This document shows positions 21,717-63,660 of a DNA stretch of 64,000 nucleotides, piece by piece. Position numbers and translations under genes: made by a program. The stretch is from an uncultured Spirochaetota bacterium. Lineage in GTDB: Bacteria; Spirochaetota; Brachyspiria; Brachyspirales; Brachyspiraceae. The notes beneath the pieces are model-generated. The model was given only the letters and a program-made list of their open reading frames with translations. It was not told where the DNA came from and ran no database searches. The DNA lies in NCBI GenBank assembly GCA_944390575.1, contig CALXQJ010000003.1:1-64000 (forward strand), given 5' to 3'. Every line of letters starts with the position of its first letter. The first letter of the stretch is position 1.

Positions 21717-22517
21717 TTACACAGCAACATCAGCCTTAATAGTAGGATGACAATTATAATTCTCTATAACAAAATCTTCATAAGTATGACTAAATATATT
21801 CTTAGCATCTCTTATATATATTTTATGCTCTTGAGGATAAGGTTCTCTTGAAAGTTGAAACTTTACTTGCTCTATATGATTATTATATATATGAGCATCT
21901 CCAAAAGTCATAATAAGTTCAGAAGCTTTAAGTCCACTATGCATAGCTAAAAGTTTTGTAAGTATAGCATAAGAAGATATATTAAAAGGAACACCCAAAA
22001 ATAAATCAGCAGAACGTTGATATAAATGTGCAATTATACCTCCATCCTTATTTACAGAAAATTGACACATCATATGACAAGGTGGTAAAGCCATTTTCTC
22101 TATTTCACCAACATTCCAAGCATTTAATATTATTCTTCTACTTGTAGGATTATTTCTCAAAGTATTAACTATATTTGAAATTTGATCAACACTGTTACCA
22201 TCAGAAGTCTCCCAATTTCTCCACTGCTTACCATAAACAGGACCAAGCTCTCCCATTTCATCTGCCCACTCATCCCATATATGAACATTATTTTCTAATA
22301 AATATTTAATATTAGTAGAACCCTGTAAAAACCAAAGTAATTCTATAATAACACCTTTTAAAAATACTTTTTTAGTTGTTATAATAGGAATAGAATCTTC
22401 TTCAAACTTAAATCTTAATTGAGGTCCAAATATTCTTCTGGTACCAACACCTGTTCTGTCTAAAGTCTCTTCACCTTCTAATAAAACTTTTTTTAATAAG
22501 TCTAAATAATTTTGCAT
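21717..22517 (-). CDS. thyA: Thymidylate synthase
   Basis: Methylates dUMP to dTMP using methylenetetrahydrofolate, producing dihydrofolate for FolA. The 266 residues match the ThyA length. LDRTGVGTRRIFG (19-31) is the phosphate-binding start, PPCHMMCQFSV holds the nucleophile Cys147, and QRSADLFLGVPFNISSYA (about 167-184) binds dUMP and folate. It ends with the typical C-terminal IKADVAV. It is downstream of pepT (72 bases). Confidence 0.97.
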   Translation of the reverse strand: MQNYLDLLKKVLLEGEETLDRTGVGTRRIFGPQLRFKFEEDSIPIITTKKVFLKGVIIELLWFLQGSTNIKYLLENNVHIWDEWADEMGELGPVYGKQWRNWETSDGNSVDQISNIVNTLRNNPTSRRIILNAWNVGEIEKMALPPCHMMCQFSVNKDGGIIAHLYQRSADLFLGVPFNISSYAILTKLLAMHSGLKASELIMTFGDAHIYNNHIEQVKFQLSREPYPQEHKIYIRDAKNIFSHTYEDFVIENYNCHPTIKADVAV

Positions 22518-22589
22518 ATCTATATAAACCTGTATAAAATTAGTTTGTGATTATAACATAAAATTAATAATATAGATATATTAAAAATA

Positions 22590-23837
22590 CTATTTTACTT
22601 TATTAGCAATAAGTTTTATAATCTCTAAAGTTGTAAGTAAACTCTTTTGAAAAGATTCTACTGGTAAAAACTCATAAATAGAATGAAAATTATGAGCACC
22701 TGTAAAATAATTAGGAGTAAGAAGCCCTTTCACAGATAAAGCAGAACCATCAGTACCACCTCTCATAGAAATGGTCTTAGCCTCTATATCTAAATTTTTC
22801 ATAGCCTCATAAATAACATCTATAGGAAACTTATCATCCTTAATAGAATCAGCAATATTTCCATAAACATCTTCAATATTTAATTCTATCTTTGCACGAG
22901 GTTCTTTTTTTCTATACTTTTCAATAACTTCTTTTATTTTTAATTTTTTATTTTCAAATAATTGCTTATTATGATCTCTAATATTTAATGTAAGTGTAGC
23001 TGTTTTTTGATTACCACTTATTCCTTGCACCCAAATATATCCTTCTTTATTTTCAGTGTTCTCAGGAGTATCTTTTCTATCAAACTCATTTGCAATATCT
23101 ATAGCAATAAGTATAGGATTCACTAATACTCCCTTAGCACTCATAGGATGAGCTGTAACACCTTCTATATTTATATAAGCCATACCAGCATTAAATGTCT
23201 CATAACAAACTTCACCAAGCTCACAGCAATCTATAGTATATGCAAAATCAGGATTAAAAACATTTAAATCCAATTGCTTAGCACCTCTAAGACCAATCTC
23301 TTCATCAGGAACAAAAGCAATATGAATATCACCATGATCTAAATTATTATCTATAATAACTTTTAATGTACTCATAATAGTAGCTATAGCAGCCTTATTA
23401 TCAGCGCCAAGTACACTACAACCATCAGAAAATATAATATCCTGATTTATATAATTCTTTATTTCTGGATGTTCTTCTACTTTCAAAAATATATTTTTTT
23501 CTTTATTCAAACAAATATCAGAACCATCAAATTTTACAATATGAGGTTTTATATCAGCACTAAGTCCAACATCAACAGTATCCAAATGTGCAACAAAACC
23601 TATTGAATGAACATTATCTTTATTTTTTGGTAATAATGCTGTAACTATTGAATTGTCATTTAATACAATATTTTTAAGTCCTAAAGCTTCTAAATCCTTA
23701 GCAAGTACCTTAGCAAGCTCCATCTGACCTAAAGTACTAGGCAAAATTTTAGAAGAAGCATTACTTTGACTTGATATAGCAATATACTTAAAAAAACTAT
23801 CTATTTGAAATTTTTTAATATCATCACTTAAAATCAT
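22590..23837 (-). CDS. pepT: Peptidase T (tripeptide aminopeptidase)
   Basis: M20B metallopeptidase that removes the N-terminal residue from tripeptides in the cytoplasm. The 415 residues show the zinc ligands in AHLDTVDVG (about 83-91), SVLGADNKAA, and the PDEEIGLRGA catalytic glutamate pair, with IDCCELGEVCYETFNA following as in PepT. It is directly downstream of the AbgT transporter (23 bases), suggesting uptake and cleavage of a small amide or peptide. The ATG is preceded by a TTAGGAGT-like ribosome site. Confidence 0.93.
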   Translation of the reverse strand: MILSDDIKKFQIDSFFKYIAISSQSNASSKILPSTLGQMELAKVLAKDLEALGLKNIVLNDNSIVTALLPKNKDNVHSIGFVAHLDTVDVGLSADIKPHIVKFDGSDICLNKEKNIFLKVEEHPEIKNYINQDIIFSDGCSVLGADNKAAIATIMSTLKVIIDNNLDHGDIHIAFVPDEEIGLRGAKQLDLNVFNPDFAYTIDCCELGEVCYETFNAGMAYINIEGVTAHPMSAKGVLVNPILIAIDIANEFDRKDTPENTENKEGYIWVQGISGNQKTATLTLNIRDHNKQLFENKKLKIKEVIEKYRKKEPRAKIELNIEDVYGNIADSIKDDKFPIDVIYEAMKNLDIEAKTISMRGGTDGSALSVKGLLTPNYFTGAHNFHSIYEFLPVESFQKSLLTTLEIIKLIANKVK

Positions 23838-23860
23838 AATTAATAAAACTCCTAAAATAT

Positions 23861-25426
23861 TTATTGTATAGGTGGATATACATAACCACTATTAAAACCC
23901 AAAGGTATATTCAAAGCCCAAAATAAATATAACATTATCATAAGAGCAATTAAAAGCCCTATACTATATGGAAGCATCATAGAAGATAATGTACCAACTC
24001 CTGTTTTTTTACAATATTTCTGACAGTATGAAATAATAAGAGGGTAAAAAGCAAATAATGGTGTTACTACATTTATAGCAGAATCACTTATTCTAAAAGC
24101 AGCTTGAGTCAATTCTGGTGAAATATTTACATACATAAGCATTGGAACAAAAATAGGAGCAAGTATAGCCCACTTTGAAGAAGCTGATGTAATAATTAAA
24201 TTTAATAAAGCTGTAAAAAATATTATACCAGCAATTGTAATTTGAGGGGGTAAAGCTAAAGATTTCAATAATTCAGCTCCAGATACAGCAAGAAGTGTTC
24301 CAACTTGAGATTTCCCAAACACATATAAAAACTGAGAACAGAAAAAAGCAAATAACATAAATGAAGCTAAATTCTTAATAGAACTAGACATAGCTAAACT
24401 AAACTCCTTAGTAGTTTTAAATTTATTAGTTAGCTTTCCATAAATAAATCCAGGTATAGTTAAGAATAAAAAAAGTAAAGGAACTATAGACTTCATTACA
24501 GGTGCATCTGGTGTTGTAAGTTTTCCTGAAGGGGATCTTAATAATGAATCTTTAGGAATTAAAAGAATAATTAATAATACTATCATAGATATTAATACAA
24601 TAGTAGAAATCATAAAAGCTCTATTCTCTTCTTTTGAAAGAGATGTAATATTTGTATCTTCTTTTTGACAGTCTTCATCTATAGGCATTGTTTTCCACAA
24701 AAAAGGTTCTACTATCTTATCTGTAACAAACCAACAAACTAAAATAACAGCAACTGTAGATGATACACTCAAAAAATAATTACATAATACATTAACACTA
24801 TAAGTAGGATCTATTAAGCGTGCAGCTCCCTCTGTAAACCCTTGCATAATAGGATCTATAGTAGCAGGAGTAAAACTAGCAGAAAAACCACCAGCAAGAC
24901 CGGCAAAAGAAGCTGCTATTCCTGCAAGAGGATGGCGACCTACAGCATAAAACATCATAGAAGCTATAGGCATTAAAATAACATAAGAAGAATCTGATGT
25001 TATATGACTCACTACAGAAATAAATATTATAGATGGTGCTATAGCATTCTTAGGAATAATATTTAAAAGTTTAATAAGAACTGTTCTAATATAACCACTT
25101 CCCTCAGCTACTCCAATTCCTATAGTAGCTACAATTGTAATTCCAAGTGGTGGAAAATTAATAAAGTTACTAACTATTTGTGTTAAAAATATTGTTAGTT
25201 CTTTTGGAGATAAAATATTTAATATTTTAATTTGTTCTTTTGTAGTTGGATGAATATAATCAAAATTAACAAATGATAATGCAAAAGATATAAATAACAT
25301 TATAAAAAATGCAAATAAAAATAGAATAGTAATATCTGGTAGCTTATTTCCAATTACTTCTATGGTATTTAAAAATTTTTCAAAAAATGATGATTTTTTT
25401 ATAGTAGTATTATTCTTATTATCCAA
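23861..25426 (-). CDS. AbgT family transporter
   Basis: A 521-residue transporter of the AbgT family, whose characterised members import p-aminobenzoyl-glutamate or export sulphonamides. About eleven helices are visible. SPSIIFISVV, SDSSYVILMPIA and GLAGGFSASFTPATIDP are family hallmarks in the first half; SSASSKWAILAPIFVPML is the second re-entrant motif. The start codon is TTG at 25426: GGAGG lies at 25433-25437, correctly spaced, and no ATG fits. With pepT 23 bases downstream and folA and thyA nearby, folate-fragment or peptide uptake is plausible but not proven. Confidence 0.9.
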   Translation of the reverse strand: MDNKNNTTIKKSSFFEKFLNTIEVIGNKLPDITILFLFAFFIMLFISFALSFVNFDYIHPTTKEQIKILNILSPKELTIFLTQIVSNFINFPPLGITIVATIGIGVAEGSGYIRTVLIKLLNIIPKNAIAPSIIFISVVSHITSDSSYVILMPIASMMFYAVGRHPLAGIAASFAGLAGGFSASFTPATIDPIMQGFTEGAARLIDPTYSVNVLCNYFLSVSSTVAVILVCWFVTDKIVEPFLWKTMPIDEDCQKEDTNITSLSKEENRAFMISTIVLISMIVLLIILLIPKDSLLRSPSGKLTTPDAPVMKSIVPLLFLFLTIPGFIYGKLTNKFKTTKEFSLAMSSSIKNLASFMLFAFFCSQFLYVFGKSQVGTLLAVSGAELLKSLALPPQITIAGIIFFTALLNLIITSASSKWAILAPIFVPMLMYVNISPELTQAAFRISDSAINVVTPLFAFYPLIISYCQKYCKKTGVGTLSSMMLPYSIGLLIALMIMLYLFWALNIPLGFNSGYVYPPIQ

Positions 25427-27340: not shown

Positions 27341-29160
27341 ACTTCACTTCCTTGATGTAATTGTTCCTTAAGCTTATTTAATTTATGTATTTCTCTAGCC
27401 TTGGTACAAATAGATTCAAAGTTAATACTTTCTTCTTTAGAGTTGTTACTATTTAATATCTCTCTCTTAGTATAATCTATCTCGGCACTCTTTAACTTTA
27501 AAATAAGCTCCTCTAACTTTTCATTTACATTTTCTGAATATAGTTTCTCTTTACTTCTTATCTTATTAGCAATAGCATCATCTCCTAATATATTAAGAGC
27601 ATCATCTACACTAGCATCCTTATCAAGAGTAAGCAGTCTTATATAAAATTCTCTTGTGTTATCTTTCTTAAGTAAGTCTACACCTATACTCTTCTCTGCA
27701 ACTCTAATCAAAGAAGGATTCAAAGTAAGTAAATATATCAAACTATTTTCATAATATAATTTATTATCCTTTTTCTTAATTACCTTAGGTATATTATTAT
27801 TAACTTTTACTATATTTGTATTAAAATATTTCAAATAATCCTTTCTAAAAGCATCTTTGTCTATCATAAGCTTAGAAGATAAATAGTTTATAATCATTTC
27901 TTTTTCTGTTTCACTATTTAATACATCAAAATATTTATAAAATATTTGTACTATCTTTAACTTCTCTTCTATAGAAGTATCTTCTATACTTTTATTACCT
28001 ATATTACCTAAAGCAGATTTTATTATAAAATCATACCAAGTAAGTTTATTACTATATAAAATATCAAACCTATCTTTATTATAAAGAGTAAAATACTCAT
28101 CTAAATCTTTAGTTTCTGATATAGTAAGTATATGTAAATTTATACCATACTTAAGCATAAGAAGTATAGCCATCTTAGTAGCCTTAATACCAGCCTCATC
28201 ATTATCAAGTGCAAGTACAACATTACTAGTATACTTCTTTATTTCTTTAATATGATCCTCAGTAATAGCAGTACCAAGAGAACCAACTACATTTTTAATC
28301 CCAACTTTATGACAAGCAATGGTGTCCATATACCCTTCTACAAGTATAATCTCATCTTCTTTTAGTATATACTTTTTTGCTATATTAATACCATAAAGAG
28401 TAGATTTCTTTTTAAAAATTAAACTTTCTTTAGAGTTTAAATACTTAGGTTCACGTCCATCAATACTTCTACCACCAAAACCTATAACTTCTTCCCTATC
28501 ATTAATAATAGGAAACATAATTCTATTAATAAAAGTATCATAAAAATGATTTGGATTATTACGACTAACATTAGAAAGCCCCAAAGCATTAATACTTTTC
28601 ATAGATACTTTATTATTTTCTAAAACACTAATAAGTCCATTCCACATAGGAGGAGCATACCCTATCTTAAAATCTCTTACTATATCAAAAGGAATTTTTC
28701 TATTTTTTAAATAATCAGTAGCATCTTTATAAATATAATTTCCATTTTTATCTTTTAAAAGAAGAGTTTTACCATAATAATTAGAAGCTATTCTATTAAT
28801 CTTTCTACTCTCCAAATATATTTGCTCTTTTTGAGTATTCTTCTTAGAAAAAAAGTCAGAAGTATCAACTCCAAAACGACGCCCCAAGTATGATACAGCA
28901 TCTTTAAAGTCCATACCTTCTTTTTCTTTTAAATATGTTAATACATTACCCTTAGAACCACAAGTAAAACAGCGATATATACCCTTAGAGTCATCAACAG
29001 ACATAGAAGGATTAGTTTCCATACCATCTTTATGAAAAGGGCATTGTACTGTATAACTACTACCTCCTCTATGTATCACCTTATATTTTTCACGAAGTAA
29101 ATCAACAAGTGAAACCATAGATAAAAGTCTATTTAATTTCTCTATAAATATACTATTCAT
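27337..29160 (-). CDS. dnaG: DNA primase
   Basis: Synthesises RNA primers for replication. The 607-residue protein has the N-terminal zinc finger (CPFH ... CFTC, about residues 40-67). The central TOPRIM domain has [16 protein letters not shown] and [14 protein letters not shown] with its metal-binding acids, and [17 protein letters not shown] is the conserved polymerase motif before it. The C-terminal helicase-binding part is diverged, as usual. A good promoter precedes it and rpoD overlaps its end. Confidence 0.96.
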
Positions 29161-29192
29161 AAAAACTGTCTATTTTTCTCAAAATCAAAATA

Positions 29193-29220
29193 TATGATAA
29201 GAATTATTAAAAAAATGTCA
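29193..29220 (-). promoter_or_regulatory. Sigma-70 promoter of dnaG-rpoD
   Basis: On the minus strand TTGACA (29220-29215) and TATCAT (29198-29193) are separated by 16 bases; the expected start site is about 25 bases before the dnaG ATG. Confidence 0.72.
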
Positions 29221-29285
29221 AGTAATTGTTATCATAACTATAAGAAAAAAAAGAAATAAATATTATAAAAAATTTAATTTAATAG

Positions 29286-29313
29286 TTGACATTTTCATTA
29301 TTGTTGTTATAAT
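29286..29313 (+). promoter_or_regulatory. Consensus promoter of tRNA-Asn
   Basis: TTGACA (29286-29291) and TATAAT (29308-29313) are both perfect, with a 16-base spacer, 30 bases before the mature tRNA. It is the best promoter in the window, as expected for a stable RNA. Confidence 0.88.
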
Positions 29314-29342
29314 AACTAAACATTAATTGAAAAATTAATTAT

Positions 29343-29415
29343 TCCGAGATAGCTCAGTCGGTAGAGCAGGTGACTGTTAATCACCGGGTCGCAGGTTCGA
29401 GCCCTGTTCTCGGAG
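29343..29415 (+). tRNA. tRNA-Asn (anticodon GTT)
   Basis: Complete cloverleaf of 73 bases. The acceptor stem pairs TCCGAGA (29343-29349) with TCTCGGA (29408-29414), with discriminator G at 29415. The anticodon stem GGTGA/TCACC (29369-29373 with 29381-29385) encloses loop CTGTTAA with anticodon GTT at 29376-29378. The T arm GCAGG/CCTGT encloses TTCGAGC. The 3' CCA is not encoded (CATG follows the discriminator region), so it must be added by nucleotidyltransferase. A single-gene unit with its own promoter and terminator. Confidence 0.98.
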
Positions 29416-29431
29416 CATGTACAAAATAAAA

Positions 29432-29462
29432 AGCTAGTCGTTTTATAGACTGGCTTTTTTTT
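29432..29462 (+). terminator. Terminator after tRNA-Asn
   Basis: AGCTAGTC (29432-29439) pairs with GACTGGCT (29448-29455, one G-U) around an 8-base loop and is followed by seven T residues. Confidence 0.88.
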
Positions 29463-29489
29463 ATTTATAAAAAATAAAGTTAAAATAAA

Positions 29490-29524
29490 AAAACTACTAT
29501 AAATACAAAATTAATAGTAGTTTT
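29490..29524 (-). terminator. Terminator after the hisS-mltG operon (possibly bidirectional)
   Basis: An 11-bp stem AAAACTACTAT/ATAGTAGTTTT encloses a 13-base loop. The minus-strand reading ends in TTTTTTTATTTT, suiting termination after mltG, whose stop codon lies about 24 bases before it. The plus-strand reading also has T residues. Confidence 0.75.
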
Positions 29525-29547
29525 TTATATAAAGCTTTTATCTCTAT

Positions 29548-30561
29548 CTATTTCTTTAATATATACTTATTGATATTATCAACATGCTCTTCATAAGTAA
29601 CAGAAAAAGCATGCTTACCAGTACCATCTGCAACAAAGAAAATATAATCAGTCTTAGCAGGATCAATAGCAGCATTAATAGCCCTTTCCCCACTAGAACA
29701 AATAGGTCCAGGTGGAAGTCCTATATTTTTATAAGTATTATATGGATGTTCTCTTCTTAAATCATCATATCTTAAATTTGGTCTACCCAATGCCTTACCT
29801 GCAAGTAATGTCATAGAATATATAGTAGTAGGATCTGCCTCAAGTCTTTTATTAATCTTTAATCTATTATAATATACAGAAGCTATAATCTTAGGATCAT
29901 CTAAAGGTCCCATTTCCTTTTCAACAATAGAAGCCATAGTTAATAATTGATGAGTTGTAATACCAAGTTTCTTAGCTTTATTATCTAATTCTTCTCTTGG
30001 AAATTTTTTAAATAAAGAATCTATCATTAAAGTAAGTAAAACCTTAGCAGGATTTCCCTTAACTATATAATAAGTAGAAGGAAAAATATATCCCTCAACA
30101 CTCTTAGCAGGTATTTTATACTTATCTAAAAACTCCTTACTATAGCATAATTCTAAAAACTCATCTCTTTTTACAAACCCTTCAGCATCAAGATAATCAG
30201 CAATTTCATATATATTACGTCCCTCAGGAATAACAATCTTACTAAGTGCCTGCTTACCACTATTGATATATTTAAGTATATCAATCATATTCATATCTCT
30301 ATTAAGTTCATAATAACCACTTAAAAGCTTTTTATCATAACTTAAATACTTAGCAACAATAGCAAAAACTCTATAATTTCTAATAAGCCCCTGCAACTCT
30401 AATTTTTTTCCAATAGAATAAGCACCCTCACCCTGTTTGATTTCAAAGTATACTTTCCCCTTTTCTTTACTTGCAGGTGAAATCATATATCCTAAAAAAG
30501 AACCAACTATAATAACTCCTACAATAGCAAAAATAGAAAATAATATCAAAACTTTTTTCAT
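29548..30561 (-). CDS. mltG: Endolytic murein transglycosylase MltG
   Basis: Inner-membrane lytic transglycosylase that cleaves nascent glycan strands and so sets peptidoglycan chain length. The start is placed at the ATG at 30561 (MKKVLILFSIFA), with GAGGA about 11 bases upstream; an in-frame TTG at 30579 overlaps that site. One N-terminal helix (about 3-25) precedes a LysM-like part (EIKQGEGAYSIGKKLELQG) and the YceG domain: PEGRNIYEIADYL, GYIFPSTYYI, the catalytic MASIVEKEMG with its glutamate, and YYNRLKINKRLEADPTTIYS. It follows hisS by 20 bases. Confidence 0.93.
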   Translation of the reverse strand: MKKVLILFSIFAIVGVIIVGSFLGYMISPASKEKGKVYFEIKQGEGAYSIGKKLELQGLIRNYRVFAIVAKYLSYDKKLLSGYYELNRDMNMIDILKYINSGKQALSKIVIPEGRNIYEIADYLDAEGFVKRDEFLELCYSKEFLDKYKIPAKSVEGYIFPSTYYIVKGNPAKVLLTLMIDSLFKKFPREELDNKAKKLGITTHQLLTMASIVEKEMGPLDDPKIIASVYYNRLKINKRLEADPTTIYSMTLLAGKALGRPNLRYDDLRREHPYNTYKNIGLPPGPICSSGERAINAAIDPAKTDYIFFVADGTGKHAFSVTYEEHVDNINKYILKK

Positions 30562-57791: not shown

Positions 57792-58106
57792 ATGCAGTTA
57801 TTAGCTCGTATTTTAGCAAAAGAAACAGATGAAAAGTTTATAAATAAACTATTAGTAGAGTTATTTACAAAAGATGAACAAGAAATGATAAATCAAAGAT
57901 TAAAAATAATAACTTTATTAAGAAAAAAAATGCCTCAATATGAAATAGCAAAAAATTTAAATGCAAGCTTATGTTCAATTACAAGAGGTGCTAAAGAATT
58001 AAAAAAAGCAGATAGTGCATTAGCCGTAATAGTAGATAAATATATTAAGTATGATGAAAATTTTCAAAATAACTTGCCACAATCAGATAAAAAGAGAGAT
58101 GATTAA
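57792..58106 (+). CDS. TrpR/YerC-type repressor
   Basis: A 104-residue DNA-binding protein of the Trp repressor superfamily. LVELFTKDEQEMINQRLKII and MPQYEIAKNLNASLCSITRG (the helix-turn-helix, ending in the conserved ITRG) match E. coli TrpR. It starts at MQLLARILAKE after a strong GGAGG. Whether tryptophan is its co-repressor cannot be told: the YerC group is less well defined. It has its own promoter with an inverted repeat, and converges on hemW. Confidence 0.82.
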   Translation: MQLLARILAKETDEKFINKLLVELFTKDEQEMINQRLKIITLLRKKMPQYEIAKNLNASLCSITRGAKELKKADSALAVIVDKYIKYDENFQNNLPQSDKKRDD

Positions 58107-59218
58107 AAAAATAATAAACTAATTTCATCTACATAATGTAAGTATTCTCTTTTAATAGATATAAAATTATTAGAAATAGAAAAATAATATTCGTAATTTT
58201 TTAATATAGTAGAATAATCTTTTAGAAAGTTACTATTAAACATATTTGTATATTTAATTAAATCTAATCCTCTAATAGTTCTAAGTGATAAAAATATAAA
58301 CTCTTTTTTAAGCATTGTATCATCTAAAGTTTCACTATACTTAATAGCAAGATTATTTTCTTTTATACTATTAATATAATCATTAATAACTCTAATATTT
58401 TCATATCGTACATTATTATAAAAACCACAAGCAGAAACACCAATACCAATATACTCTTTTAAATCCCAATAATTAGAATTATGTATAGACTCAAATCCTA
58501 AAATAGCATAATTAGAAATTTCATATCTATTAAACCCTAACTCTTCTATAGTAGCAGATGCTATATCATAATAAATAACACTATCTTCTATAGTAGGTAA
58601 ATATTCATTCCAACGCTTTATTAGTGCATCTGTAAGCTCTAAATCATAAAGTGATATATGCTTCATTTTTGGAAGAAGTTTATATGCAAGTAGTATATCT
58701 TCTTTTGTAGTATTTATACTATTAAGAGGAAGTGCAGATATAAAATCTACAGATATATTTTCTAACTTTGAATTTTGAACCGTCTCCAAAGCCTTAATAA
58801 TATCATTTTTATCAGTATGCCTATTTATAATAGACAAACTTTTCTCATTAAATGTTTGAAGACCTATAGAAAGCCTGATATTATTAATAGCCTCTAAGAC
58901 TTTAATTGTGTCATTATTGATTTCATTAATATTAAATTCTATTGTAATTTCTTTTAAGGAGTTTAAATTAATAATTTTTTCTAATCCATTAAATAAATAC
59001 TCAATTAAAGAAGCTCCAATAATTGAAGGAGTTCCCCCTCCTATATAAATAGTGTCTATACTATTATTATAATCTTTTATTCGAATATTATACTCATTTA
59101 ATAAAGAATCTAAATATAACTTATAAACATCCTTATCATTATAATGTACAACAGAAAAAAAATTACAATAAGTGCATTTATAAGAACAAAATGGAATATG
59201 TATATAAAGTCCAGACAT
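58103..59218 (-). CDS. hemW: HemW-type radical SAM protein
   Basis: Annotated in many genomes as oxygen-independent coproporphyrinogen oxidase but better considered a haem chaperone. The 371-residue protein begins MSGLYIHIPFCSYKCTYC with C11, C15 and C18 binding the SAM cluster, then TIYIGGGTPSIIG and SIGLQTFNEKSLSIINR. The extra N-terminal motifs of true HemN are absent. It starts within the sigma factor stop (one-base overlap), so it belongs to the fliD-lpxC-sigma transcript. No other haem genes are in the window. Confidence 0.9.
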   Translation of the reverse strand: MSGLYIHIPFCSYKCTYCNFFSVVHYNDKDVYKLYLDSLLNEYNIRIKDYNNSIDTIYIGGGTPSIIGASLIEYLFNGLEKIINLNSLKEITIEFNINEINNDTIKVLEAINNIRLSIGLQTFNEKSLSIINRHTDKNDIIKALETVQNSKLENISVDFISALPLNSINTTKEDILLAYKLLPKMKHISLYDLELTDALIKRWNEYLPTIEDSVIYYDIASATIEELGFNRYEISNYAILGFESIHNSNYWDLKEYIGIGVSACGFYNNVRYENIRVINDYINSIKENNLAIKYSETLDDTMLKKEFIFLSLRTIRGLDLIKYTNMFNSNFLKDYSTILKNYEYYFSISNNFISIKREYLHYVDEISLLFF

Positions 59219-60057
59219 TAGTTTAGAAAATCTTTTAAAGAGCTATATCTTTTAGAATACATTTTTCTAAGAGCTTTTTTTTCTATTTGTCTAATACGTT
59301 CTTTTGTTAGTGAATATTGTTCGCCTACTTCTCTTATTGTTTTTCTATCTTGATCTATACCATATCTTGCATTTATAATATTTTTTTCCATATCAGTAAG
59401 CTCTTCCATAGCTATTTTTAACTCTTCTATAAGTTCTTTATTTTCAACAGATTCTTGTGCAGTTGGTGACTTTTTATCTTCTATAATATCAACAAGCTTA
59501 TCATTAGTATTTTCAAATGTAGTATCAGCATCAAGTGAAATATGTTCATTACTCATCATAAGTATTTGTAATATATCACTAGGATCTTTTTTTAATATAG
59601 TAGCAAGTTCATCAATATCAGGCTTTTCACCACTTTGATAATAATATTTATGTATAACACGTTCCAAATCAAGTAGATCCATAGCCTTATTTAATGGAAG
59701 TCTAATAAGACGAGATTTTTCATTAATAGCTCTTAAAATACTCTGTCTTATCCAATACACAGCATAAGAAATAAAATGATAACATTTATCAGGATCAAAT
59801 TTATCAGCAGCTATTATTAATCCTAAATTTCCTTCCCCAATCAAATCCTCAAGTAAAAGCCCACTATTTCTATACTGCTTAGCAATAGTAATAACAAATC
59901 TTAAATTACTCTTAATAAGCAAAGCACGAGCCTTAGGATCATTCTCCTTAACCCTCTTAGTAAGCTCTATCTCCTCTTCTCGGGTAAGTAATCTTTCCTT
60001 CTTAGCATCTTCAAAATATAAAGATATATTATTTTCTTCCTTTTTTATATTTCCCAT
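59218..60057 (-). CDS. Alternative sigma-70 (group 2/3) factor
   Basis: A 279-residue sigma factor lacking region 1.1. Region 1.2 (LYFEDAKKERLLTREEEIEL), region 2 (RFVITIAKQYRNSGLLLEDL, YHFISYAVYWIRQSILRAI), region 3 and region 4.2 (KTIREVGEQYSLTKERIRQI) are intact. The window also carries the primary sigma (25583-27340), so this is a second one, similar in layout to RpoS-like or group 2 factors. It follows the REC-LpxC gene by 11 bases and is coupled to hemW. Its promoter target is unknown. Confidence 0.92.
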   Translation of the reverse strand: MGNIKKEENNISLYFEDAKKERLLTREEEIELTKRVKENDPKARALLIKSNLRFVITIAKQYRNSGLLLEDLIGEGNLGLIIAADKFDPDKCYHFISYAVYWIRQSILRAINEKSRLIRLPLNKAMDLLDLERVIHKYYYQSGEKPDIDELATILKKDPSDILQILMMSNEHISLDADTTFENTNDKLVDIIEDKKSPTAQESVENKELIEELKIAMEELTDMEKNIINARYGIDQDRKTIREVGEQYSLTKERIRQIEKKALRKMYSKRYSSLKDFLN

Positions 60058-60068
60058 AATACTAAAAA

Positions 60069-61382
60069 CTATAAATACCTATGTGCAAGATCATGTACTA
60101 CTGAGTGATTAAAAGAATGAGAAGTTTTATTAGCCACTATTTTAGCCCTAACAGGTCTTGCCAAAATATATAAATCCCCAATAATATCTAAAATTTTATG
60201 TCTCACAAACTCATTATCAAAATGTAAATTAGTGTTAATAACCTTACCATCATAAAGTATAATATGACTTCCAATCATACCACTACCAGCCATACCCATT
60301 TTCTGAGCATAATCTATATTATCAATAGTATTAAAAGAACGAGCCCTTCCAATCTCTTGTGTAAATTGATCAAAACTCTCAAAAGTATAAGTATACTCCT
60401 GAACACCAATAGAATTAGCAAAATCTATACGAAGAGATATTTGAAGTCCATCATAAGGATATAGTTTAACATAAGTTTCATTATCATTATTAATATCCCC
60501 ATAAGTTAATTCTCTATCTATAATAATAGGCTCTATATAATCATCTTGTTCTACAAAACCAGCCTCTTTTAAAGCATCACAAAATACTAAAGCAGAGCCA
60601 TCAACATTAGGTACCTCTCCATCACACTTAACTATTAAATTAGTAATACCCATCATATGTAAAGCACCTAAAAAATGCTCAGTAGTTCTAATAGATCTAT
60701 TACCGCTTACTAAAGCAGTAGAATTAACAGCACCAGATTTACCCTTAGGCAAAATATTATGATTAGATAATTTAATTTCAGTATTTGTATTAATATCAAT
60801 AAAAATAATTCCAGAGTTTTCAGGAGCAGGTAAAAGCTTCATAGCAGTCTTACGACCTTCCATCAAAGCAAAACCACTAATTACAACGCTTTTTGCTATA
60901 GTTCTTTGCTTTATCTTATAATTAGACTCTGCTACTTTAATATTTTTTTCTTTTTCATTATTACTATTTATTTTAGTATTATTAATTTCCTCTTTATTAT
61001 CAAAACTATCAAAAACCTTTTCACAAGCACCTATAAGCTTTGATATATTAATAGGTTTTTCTAAAAAATCATAAGCCCCCATTTTAGTAGTTCTAACAGC
61101 AGTTTCAACTCCAGCATGCCCACTCATCATTATAACAAATATATCAGGATAGTTTTCCTTAATAAAGCTTAATATATCAAGTCCATCAATATTAGGAAGC
61201 CATACATCCAAAAATACAAGCTTAATATCCTTAGAAGACAATATATCTTTAGCTTCATTAAAGTCTGAAGCAACACTCACATCATAATCTTCTAAAACAG
61301 CCTTACAAGTATTTAATATATCTAACTCATCATCTATAATTAAGATGCTATTTTTTACTTTTACATTTTCTACACTTTGCAT
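60069..61382 (-). CDS. lpxC: Response-regulator receiver fused to LpxC deacetylase
   Basis: A 437-residue fusion. Residues 10-125 are an NtrC-type receiver domain: acidic pair D17-D18 (IIDDEL), phosphoacceptor D59 (FLDVWLPNIDG), S87 (MMSGHA) and K109 (FLEKPI). A charged linker (126-160) follows. Residues 160-437 are complete UDP-3-O-acyl-GlcNAc deacetylase, the committed step of lipid A synthesis. E235-H236 (TTEHFLGAL), H395 and D399 (RHKILDIIGD) and H422 (KTSHSFN) match E. coli E78-H79, H238, D242 and H265, with identical spacing (23 residues) between the last two. It sits between fliD and a sigma factor. Phosphorylation control is inferred. Confidence 0.93.
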   Translation of the reverse strand: MQSVENVKVKNSILIIDDELDILNTCKAVLEDYDVSVASDFNEAKDILSSKDIKLVFLDVWLPNIDGLDILSFIKENYPDIFVIMMSGHAGVETAVRTTKMGAYDFLEKPINISKLIGACEKVFDSFDNKEEINNTKINSNNEKEKNIKVAESNYKIKQRTIAKSVVISGFALMEGRKTAMKLLPAPENSGIIFIDINTNTEIKLSNHNILPKGKSGAVNSTALVSGNRSIRTTEHFLGALHMMGITNLIVKCDGEVPNVDGSALVFCDALKEAGFVEQDDYIEPIIIDRELTYGDINNDNETYVKLYPYDGLQISLRIDFANSIGVQEYTYTFESFDQFTQEIGRARSFNTIDNIDYAQKMGMAGSGMIGSHIILYDGKVINTNLHFDNEFVRHKILDIIGDLYILARPVRAKIVANKTSHSFNHSVVHDLAHRYL

Positions 61383-61446: not shown

Positions 61447-63660
61447 TTAATTATTACCACCACTCAAACTATTTTCAATTCTTTTTCTCTCACGTTCAGC
61501 AGATTCCAACTGAGATTGTAATCTATAATATGTATTAAGTCTATCTTGTCTATATTCTTCTATTCTATCTCTCTCACTATCCATACGTTTTTTATTATTA
61601 TCTAATTTACTCTTAGTCATAGTAATACTATTTTCCACTATACCACGAGTTTGAGAATAAGGAAGAATAAAATCATTCATAGTATATGCAACACCAGAAT
61701 CTGGAATATTATCTCCTGTAGTATCATTAGCAAATAGCTCTTCAATACCATCAATTTGAGTTTCTAATTTTTGAGTAAACTTCTCTTCATCAATATTTAA
61801 AAAACCCTTCTTTACAATAGTCCAATCCTCTCCAGCCTTACCCCTACTAATACCAATCTGATCTAATAAAGCAAGCTCATCACCATAAGCAGTTTCATAA
61901 GAATCAGCTATAATAAGTTTCACCTTAGAAGATATTGTACTTACAAGAGGATTTCCACTAAATACACCTACATAAGATAATTTTTTTCTAAGTGCATCAT
62001 CAGACATATCATAAGAAAATTCAATACCCAATGTAGTAGCAAGATCATCCATATCAACTCTATTCATATTCTCTAAACTCTCTCGAACTTCTCTAGATAA
62101 TGGTCTTGCTGTAGTATCATTAAGTAAGTCATTAAGCTCATTATATGCACGAACAAAATTAACTATAGCATCTACAACCTTTTCTTTATCAACCTCAATA
62201 GTAGTAGCAAATGCATTTGGAGTAGGCTTTATAGCAGTAATATTAAGTCCATTAACAACATCATTAAACTCATTATTTTCACTAAGAACATCAACTCCAT
62301 CTATAGAAGCCCTAGCATCTTTAGCTTCAGATATAAGATAATTAGGAGCATCCTCTTCCATAGAAGTATTTTCTACTAATAAATCTTTATAATATACATT
62401 ATAAGAAGGATTTTTATTAATAAGTACAACCTTAGTAATAACATCTCCATCTTCAAATTGTCCACCAATAGGAATATTAAGTCTCTGCCAAGAAGAACTT
62501 ATTGTAGGAAGAGCAAAAAATTTCTCAACCTCATCTCCAGCCTTATTTATATACTTAACCCCAATAATTTCAGAATTAAACCCATTCTCACTAGCATTAA
62601 CAGGTTCAGGTGCCTCTGCAACCTTACCCTCCTTCTCAGCTCTCTCTTTCTCTAAAGCTTCTTGATATTTCTTTATATCCTCAAAAGTACGAGAACTATC
62701 AGCAGGAGATAATCCCTCACCATATAATTCCACATCCTTAAATTTAACACTATCTATTTTGTCAAATACAACTCCAGTATCAGGAATAGATAAATCTACT
62801 GTAGGTGGTATTATAGGAGGAGCCTCATCCACCATATCTTCATCATTACCAGTAGATACTCTTGCTGTTATTGATATTGTAATATTTGGATTTGCTTCTG
62901 CTTCTCTATGAAGTGGTAATGATAATTTATTTTCTCCTTCTAAAACTAAAAAATCATTTTTTACCATATAATTTGTTTTTAAGTTTTCAGATTCATCAGT
63001 CCACTTACTTAAAAGCTCTTGATTAAATATATGCCCTAAATATCTATAAGGTCTTCTTGTAAACATATTTAAATTTGAAAGTATACCAGCCTCATCAGAT
63101 ACCACTTCTACTATATTCTTAGAGCCTGTTTTTACTAAATCAAATGTTAATACTTGTAGATTTCTTGATTTTTGAGTAATTGTTGTTTTTATCTTCTTTT
63201 TGAACACATTTTCAAATGATTTTTGTAATGCTACCAATGAACCTCCTGCAAAATTTACAGTATATTCATCTTCACCCACTTTTAACTTTATAACACCAGC
63301 GGGTAGTGTATCATTCATATTAAATGCTCTAGAAGAAAATTTTTGACTTGATGCTATTTCTTTTATTGCTATATCATAGGTAGTAGTACTTGCAAGCCTA
63401 TTTGCAGACACTGTAAAATAATCAGGTACCCCATCACCCTTACCTACAAAGTTCTTAAAAGGAGATCTAAAGCCAAATAATTCCTTAGATGCTGTAGAGA
63501 GTGTGTTTAATCTTGATCTTAAATCTTCATAAGCTGATATTTGTCTTTGATATTCTCTTGAGTTCTCTGCTAAATTCGACAAAGTAGTGCTTCTCTTATT
63601 TACCTCAGCTTCCACTGCATTTTTATAAGATTCTTGTAAAAAAGCATCAGTTGTAGCCAT
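61447..63660 (-). CDS. fliD: Flagellar hook-associated protein 2 (filament cap)
   Basis: FliD caps the growing flagellar filament and promotes flagellin assembly; in spirochaetes this happens in the periplasm. The 737-residue protein is longer than enteric FliD (about 470) but keeps the order: N-terminal coiled coil (about 20-45, NLAENSREYQRQISAYEDLR), D2-D3 body with AGGSLVALQKSFENVF, and C-terminal coil (MTKSKLDNNKKRMDSERDRI onward, 680-735). A Pro/Glu-rich insert (about 270-370) accounts for part of the extra length. It starts the fliD-lpxC-sigma-hemW cluster; a GGGGGAAA ribosome site precedes it. Confidence 0.9.
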   Translation of the reverse strand: MATTDAFLQESYKNAVEAEVNKRSTTLSNLAENSREYQRQISAYEDLRSRLNTLSTASKELFGFRSPFKNFVGKGDGVPDYFTVSANRLASTTTYDIAIKEIASSQKFSSRAFNMNDTLPAGVIKLKVGEDEYTVNFAGGSLVALQKSFENVFKKKIKTTITQKSRNLQVLTFDLVKTGSKNIVEVVSDEAGILSNLNMFTRRPYRYLGHIFNQELLSKWTDESENLKTNYMVKNDFLVLEGENKLSLPLHREAEANPNITISITARVSTGNDEDMVDEAPPIIPPTVDLSIPDTGVVFDKIDSVKFKDVELYGEGLSPADSSRTFEDIKKYQEALEKERAEKEGKVAEAPEPVNASENGFNSEIIGVKYINKAGDEVEKFFALPTISSSWQRLNIPIGGQFEDGDVITKVVLINKNPSYNVYYKDLLVENTSMEEDAPNYLISEAKDARASIDGVDVLSENNEFNDVVNGLNITAIKPTPNAFATTIEVDKEKVVDAIVNFVRAYNELNDLLNDTTARPLSREVRESLENMNRVDMDDLATTLGIEFSYDMSDDALRKKLSYVGVFSGNPLVSTISSKVKLIIADSYETAYGDELALLDQIGISRGKAGEDWTIVKKGFLNIDEEKFTQKLETQIDGIEELFANDTTGDNIPDSGVAYTMNDFILPYSQTRGIVENSITMTKSKLDNNKKRMDSERDRIEEYRQDRLNTYYRLQSQLESAERERKRIENSLSGGNN

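Follow-up and report, generated by a model that had tools for sequence, protein, structure and literature searches.

An NtrX-type receiver fused to LpxC in Brachyspiraceae and relatives: probable two-component control of the enzyme of lipid A commitment

In the genome of this uncultured gut spirochaete of the Brachyspiraceae the lpxC gene codes for a phospho-receiver domain followed by a complete LpxC deacetylase (REC–LpxC), and the comparison of sequences makes it quite probable that an NtrY-type kinase sets the phosphorylation of this NtrX-derived receiver with LpxC itself as the output. LpxC commits the cell to lipid A synthesis for the outer membrane; with a phospho-receiver fused to it, the enzyme would be open to control after translation, and a candidate for the kinase can be named. 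A search of the 2.0-Mb genome gave one copy of LpxC, namely the fusion. The gene lies in the window, i.e., the whole stretch of 64,000 nucleotides that was analyzed, together with the following features:

60069–61382, minus strand: REC–LpxC fusion gene, 437 aa, sole lpxC of the genome (ORF and Pfam)
61026–61346, minus strand: NtrX-type receiver, residues 13–119, with D17, D18, D59, S87 and K109 (Pfam PF00072, E 1e-24; NCBIfam NtrX)
61206–61208, minus strand: codon (GAT) of the predicted phospho-acceptor Asp59, invariant in alignment A2 and nearly so in the 94 alignable fusions
60927–60998, minus strand: flexible linker, residues 129–152 (AlphaFold2 pLDDT <50)
60084–60908, minus strand: LpxC deacetylase domain, residues 159–433, zinc ligands and catalytic residues complete, C-terminal tail absent (PF03331, TIGR00325, Foldseek)
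59218–60057, minus strand: RpoS/RpoD-like sigma-70 family factor, downstream of REC–LpxC after a gap of 11 bases
58103–59218, minus strand: HemW-like radical SAM protein, overlapping the sigma factor gene by 1 base; outside the proposed mechanism
61447–63660, minus strand: fliD, flagellar cap protein, upstream of REC–LpxC; position not conserved

The original prediction that a receiver is joined to LpxC in one gene proved right: both Pfam domains (Response_reg, residues 13–119, E 1e-24; LpxC, residues 159–433, E 1.2e-67) lie in a single unbroken frame of 437 codons which occupies exactly positions 60069–61382 of the minus strand. The ten residues that had been named (D17, D18, D59, S87, K109, E235, H236, H395, D399, and H422) are all present and correctly numbered. 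We could rule out a frame or assembly artefact, i.e., a chance join, because the architecture recurs in all genomes of the genus, the family, and the order. Besides this genome, the genus has a full-length REC–LpxC in 25 of 25 genomes (one broken by a contig end), the rest of the family in three of three, and the sister family of the same order in two of two, down to ∼50% identity.

The receiver match to PF00072 spans 107 residues and the quintet D, D, D, S/T, K is complete. The assignment as a phospho-receiver thus stands, whereas the NtrC type had to be refined to NtrX, which is the best curated receiver-type NCBIfam model (E 1.5e-29 versus 3.5e-18 for NtrC). In the receiver tree the domain falls among NtrX receivers, the deep forks being weakly supported. 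By Pfam, the protein of this genome has neither an AAA+ sigma-54 domain nor a helix–turn–helix (HTH) domain. These comparisons indicate that REC–LpxC derives from NtrX and yet is not an NtrX, because the AAA+ and the HTH parts are absent. The quintet is maintained over the 94 alignable fusions and forms invariant columns in the alignments A1 and A2; Asp59 itself is kept in ∼93 of the 94 from three phyla, a few rows being gapped from misplaced starts.

The enzyme half is equally complete. It covers positions 1–267 of the 268 of the PF03331 profile and reaches the equivalog model TIGR00325 (lpxC) barely above the curated cut-off, and the top 50 matches of the modelled protein in a Foldseek search of the PDB are all solved LpxC structures. 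None of the 94 alignable fusions, which come from three phyla, has lost any of the LpxC residues E, H, H, D, and H. An LpxC–FabZ-like fusion was ruled out, as there is no C-terminal FabZ and the score against NF009667 is far below the cut-off. What differs is the C-terminus, which ends 15 aa beyond the catalytic His and 4 aa past the LpxC domain, so that the C-terminal FtsH degron tail of the E. coli type is not present on REC–LpxC. Fused LpxC proteins have 13–23 aa after this His in comparison with a median of 39–45 aa in standalone LpxC, where the only short-tailed exception is one spirochaete protein (15 aa). The degron tail defines the E. coli type of control, not the identity of the enzyme. 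As control of E. coli LpxC runs through its C-terminal degron (PMC12444477) and the fused tails are short, control by the receiver may have replaced control by the tail. In addition K252, C268, Y405, H242, and other residues separate fused from standalone LpxC; all of these are candidate residues for contact with the receiver.

An AlphaFold2 model built from 17 fused sequences has a mean pLDDT of 85 and a pTM of 0.78. The structure prediction that had been proposed for the interdomain contact did not establish one between receiver and LpxC, and residues 129–152 have pLDDT values <50. Within the genus the mean identity is 81% for the receiver and 90% for LpxC but 36% for the linker (residues 127–156). 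Thus, the linker is predicted to be disordered and appears to evolve fast.

The gene order downstream of the fusion is conserved to some extent. REC–LpxC, the RpoS/RpoD-like sigma factor, and the HemW-like gene (window 58103–61382) keep their order in the genus and at L037 and L038; the order of lpxC and the sigma factor gene is also maintained at L172, where a different gene takes the place of the upstream fliD. The fusion gene and the sigma factor gene are probably co-transcribed, and from the conserved order lipid A control may share its expression with an alternative sigma factor.

As had been suggested, the domain order was searched in other genomes, and it also turned up outside the order, namely in Nitrospinota and one deltaproteobacterial phylum. 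Among the spirochaetes REC–LpxC extends to three genomes of more distant relationship, G040, G052, and G062; the remaining LpxC-bearing spirochaetes sampled contain mostly ordinary LpxC ORFs of ∼275–400 aa. Scans of genome contigs showed that the deltaproteobacterial locus L040 encodes REC–LpxC and that the Nitrospinota loci L041 and L042 encode longer REC–AAA–LpxC proteins (∼700 aa). LpxC is present in 65 of 77 Nitrospinota genomes, 56 of them with ORFs of 670–797 aa, and a receiver was found on 28 of 30 loci scanned, the remaining two ending at contig ends. In the deltaproteobacterial phylum full-length REC–LpxC matches occur in 39 of the 247 sampled genomes; 12 further genomes carry LpxC in ORFs of 630–820 aa, and the 12 fetched consist of receiver and AAA in front of LpxC. 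The fusion was not found in 20 genomes picked from other phyla (Acidobacteria, Nitrospirota, Rokubacteria, and others), and a search for plasmid-borne REC–LpxC gave no match spanning 80% of the query.

Some ORFs of 1007–1423 aa looked like kinase–REC–LpxC hybrids and were rejected as read-through frames of GC-rich genomes; at L235 and L236 the kinase has a gene of its own, which lies upstream and in a different frame. In one genome of the deltaproteobacterial phylum (G678) a fused LpxC, which is most similar to the Brachyspira type, occurs together with a standalone LpxC (L243 and G678:C122:31603-32424). Five spirochaete genomes (G146, G175, G186, G192, and G198) contain a second, very weak LpxC-like match (40–68 bits) in ORFs of 353–439 aa, possibly LpxC-like enzymes of different function.

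How did the fusion arise? In a tree of the LpxC domains of 94 fused and 14 standalone proteins a single clade (100/100) unites all fused proteins and leaves standalone LpxC outside. The same fused clade is obtained with 20 further standalone LpxC of spirochaetes in the tree, and these form a clade of their own (100/98). As the clades are separate, the fused LpxC of this lineage did not arise inside the standalone spirochaete clade. The proteins of the Brachyspira order group with L243 of the deltaproteobacterial phylum (100/99), and a second group consists of G040, G052, and G062; the branches of the fused clade are long and its inner details unsure. The simplest reading of these trees is that a transfer brought the fused LpxC to this lineage. 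The longer forms hint at the earlier steps. In REC–AAA–LpxC proteins the GAFTGA loop needed for sigma-54 work is gone and Walker B is mostly gone, and many fusions that retain the middle region have an HTH-like segment just ahead of LpxC. The existence of proteins composed of an NtrX receiver, a decayed AAA+ domain, an HTH remnant, and LpxC suggests that the output of NtrX was replaced by LpxC, and the simplest history would be a fusion of an entire NtrX to LpxC, followed by decay of the transcription parts and then by their loss.

No kinase gene adjoins REC–LpxC in the window on either strand, as judged from the ORF list and Pfam. Outside the spirochaetes the neighbourhood is more telling. 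At 18 of 55 fused loci a full ntrY with sensor and kinase parts lies directly upstream of the fused gene, the distance between the end of ntrY and the receiver match being 0–133 bases, and at L245, L256, and L284 a DUF4390 gene precedes ntrY. DUF4390 corresponds to the PlrP family; genetic evidence favours a role of this family as third component of NtrYX systems (PMC13001219). In the genomes of L040–L042 (G393–G395) NtrY is located elsewhere and no regulator follows it. The position of ntrY upstream of the fusion and the NtrY genes without a following regulator both point to the fusion occupying the slot of NtrX.

Also unfused lpxC genes are found next to this system. The order lpxC, DUF4390, ntrY, ntrX is present at L043, L048, L075, L080, and L254, and L044 has lpxC, ntrY, and ntrX with no DUF4390 detected. 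This operon, which occurs in several phyla, is apparently a widespread envelope-control unit.

The Brachyspiraceae genome has few kinases. Besides two CheA there are two kinases with a partner regulator, which is of the OmpR type for one and an NtrC for the other, as well as a GAF kinase, a NUDIX–HisKA protein, and an orphan membrane kinase. Topology and profile comparison located the last as the candidate partner:

G000:C14, about 22401–24176 (= L163:3902-5677): orphan NtrY-like histidine kinase, 591 aa

The protein has the layout of NtrY: three hydrophobic segments at the N-terminus are followed by a part presumed to be extracytoplasmic and then by a fourth segment. Its sensor part aligns with the NtrY sensor part in hhalign (98.7%, E 1.7e-16, 278 columns) and its H-box AHEIKNPL fits the NtrY-type AHE[IV]KNPL. 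The PAS domain between HAMP and HisKA is missing in the spirochaete kinase family and Pfam NtrY_N gives no match on the orphan kinase; therefore we call it NtrY-like only. Its best full-length NCBIfam match is the LIC_11548 family, under the cut-off, and with a deltaproteobacterial NtrY as query no spirochaete NtrY of the standard form, having both PAS and NtrY_N, was found. Fused spirochaetes carry relatives of the kinase, in most at full length and in a few cut or partial. In unfused spirochaetes a relative lies directly before ntrX in 13 of 13 examined, whereas in the fused spirochaetes (L163, L174, and L338–L343) no regulator follows the orphan kinase. This difference strongly suggests that the NtrY-like kinase and REC–LpxC form a pair in spirochaetes; we infer the pairing in this indirect way since the two genes are unlinked. 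The search for the kinase that the original prediction had called for was thus successful in part: there is a candidate, which is encoded on another contig and not adjacent to the fusion.

Some further observations on the signalling genes should be mentioned. The NUDIX–HisKA protein (511 aa, L162:5304-6839, G000:C17, about 28303–29838) combines a NUDIX hydrolase domain with a soluble HisKA–HATPase kinase and has no adjoining regulator. Tail to tail with the NtrY-like kinase lies a gene for a receiver-like protein of 115–118 aa (L163:5680-6027 on the minus strand, and L174:6515-6871; G000 and G016), which is also near the kinase in L343. It has no Pfam match and keeps the N-terminal DDD, the acceptor Asp being seemingly absent, and could be a pseudo-receiver which modulates the kinase. 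At L164 the order cheY-cheA-cheW-cheR-cheD-cheB resembles that reported in B. hyodysenteriae (PMC2897892); this order and the AT-rich genome make Brachyspira the very probable host.

We propose the following mechanism. An envelope signal would shift the kinase/phosphatase balance of an NtrY-type membrane sensor, in this genome most likely the orphan protein on G000:C14. The kinase would phosphorylate, and probably also dephosphorylate, Asp59 of REC–LpxC, and this would alter, in one direction or the other, the activity, stability, or location of the attached LpxC. The outcome would be post-translational control of the commitment to lipid A. Both the phosphotransfer and the resulting change in LpxC activity or stability are parts which we infer. 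Since the fused gene lies next to that of a probable sensor kinase in relatives from two other phyla, the membrane signal probably acts on LpxC itself. Comparative genomics therefore favours the direct phosphorelay control that had been predicted (Asp59 in ∼93 of 94 fusions, ntrY upstream at 18 of 55 loci, and the orphan kinase); for the lpxC transcript, control by two-component systems had been published before. In a more general form, we lean towards the view that NtrY kinases gate LpxC directly and that an NtrX–LpxC fusion with decayed transcriptional output has spread across Spirochaetota, Nitrospinota, and the deltaproteobacterial phylum and replaced tail-based control.

The effect on LpxC could be brought about by proteolysis and not by allostery. 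The receiver would then be a phosphorylation-dependent stability tag, and a protease of the FtsH, Lon, or Clp type would take over from the C-terminal degron. The lost tail, the disordered, fast-evolving linker, and the degron-based regulation of the E. coli enzyme (PMC12444477) fit this sub-mechanism of the proposed control. Nevertheless, a degron motif or an adaptor was not identified, a short tail could mean the mere loss of one control, and many LpxC proteins elsewhere lack the degron of the E. coli enzyme; we regard it as possible but rather doubtful. That the receiver serves location or assembly, by docking on the membrane kinase or by phosphorylation-driven dimerization with the intrinsic activity unchanged, is in our opinion unlikely. 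NtrX-type receivers do dimerize, and the presumed kinase is a membrane protein with four hydrophobic segments. Moreover, LapB/Ght of N. meningitidis has been reported to place LpxC at the inner membrane (PMC12444477). However, pure docking needs no conserved phosphorylation quintet, yet the quintet is kept across phyla.

The two remaining alternatives concern the receiver and its partner. The unlinked genes in spirochaetes and the other orphan kinases of the genome (NUDIX–HisKA at L162 and GAF–HisKA at L167) would also allow that another kinase or acetyl phosphate phosphorylates the receiver, or that it is a phosphate sink, NtrY not being the spirochaete partner. But ntrY adjoins the fused gene at 18 loci elsewhere and the fused spirochaetes that were examined retain the NtrY-like orphan, with no NtrX found beside it, which makes this reading improbable. 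It is very hard to regard the receiver as a non-functional leftover of the gene fusion. The variable linker could well be a passive join of two domains, but the phospho-site is fully conserved even among fusions as diverged as those of alignment A1 (33% identity), identity within the genus is 81% for the receiver as compared to 36% for the linker, and the receiver remained intact where the AAA+ and HTH parts have decayed or disappeared. Phosphorylation of the NtrX-derived receiver by an NtrY-type kinase accordingly remains our preferred explanation.

Several published findings connect two-component systems with lpxC. NtrYX represses transcription of lpxC in Rhodobacter and Caulobacter (PMC12444477), and loss of NtrYX in R. 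sphaeroides raises the lpxC transcript 8.8-fold, an effect judged indirect (PMC7240162). In D. vulgaris lpxC is the only mapped target of DVU2934, and in S. fumaroxidans the operon orthologous to that of DVU2934 follows lpxC (PMC3333781). The genome paper of B. hyodysenteriae lists lpxC and does not remark on the fusion (PMC2650404). Domain databases surely list the architecture; among open-licence papers we found none which describes a REC–LpxC fusion, in line with the earlier statement that no established system of this kind was known. The claim of a new regulatory design can be upheld in so far as no description was found, but many other genomes share the design, which extends over Spirochaetota, Nitrospinota, and the deltaproteobacterial phylum. 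The published links between NtrYX and lpxC could reflect an old envelope circuit which acts through transcription in some lineages and through direct fusion in others. In the REC–AAA–HTH–LpxC intermediates a transcription factor is apparently becoming an enzyme regulator. LpxC inhibitors might also act differently where LpxC is gated by a receiver.

Response regulators with enzymatic output are well known, for example the CheB, GGDEF, EAL, and HD-GYP types. REC–LpxC follows the same logic with a phospho-receiver ahead of an enzyme; a lipid A or LpxC output domain on a response regulator was not found described in open-licence papers. With standalone LpxC (UDP-3-O-acyl-GlcNAc deacetylase, PF03331, TIGR00325) the protein shares the complete domain, the residues, and the fold but differs by its N-terminal receiver, its short C-terminus, and its separate clade. 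LpxC–FabZ (PRK13188, NF009667) is likewise a gene fusion of LpxC, found in some phyla (PMC3087551), but it joins two enzymes of the pathway with FabZ at the C-terminus, whereas REC–LpxC has a signalling domain at the N-terminus. DVU2934 is also a two-component regulator aimed at lpxC (PMC3333781); it is a separate DNA-binding protein which acts on transcription, in contrast to the one fused protein described here. The closest system is NtrYX (NtrY PF19312; NtrX REC–AAA+–HTH) with its known tie to lpxC and envelope control (PMC7240162, PMC12444477). The likeness consists in the NtrX-type receiver, the NtrY-like candidate kinase, and the ntrX slot which appears to be filled by the fusion in relatives. 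On the other hand, the spirochaete kinase has no PAS domain and is unlinked, and REC–LpxC has LpxC in the place of AAA+ and HTH, so that its output would be enzymatic and not transcriptional.
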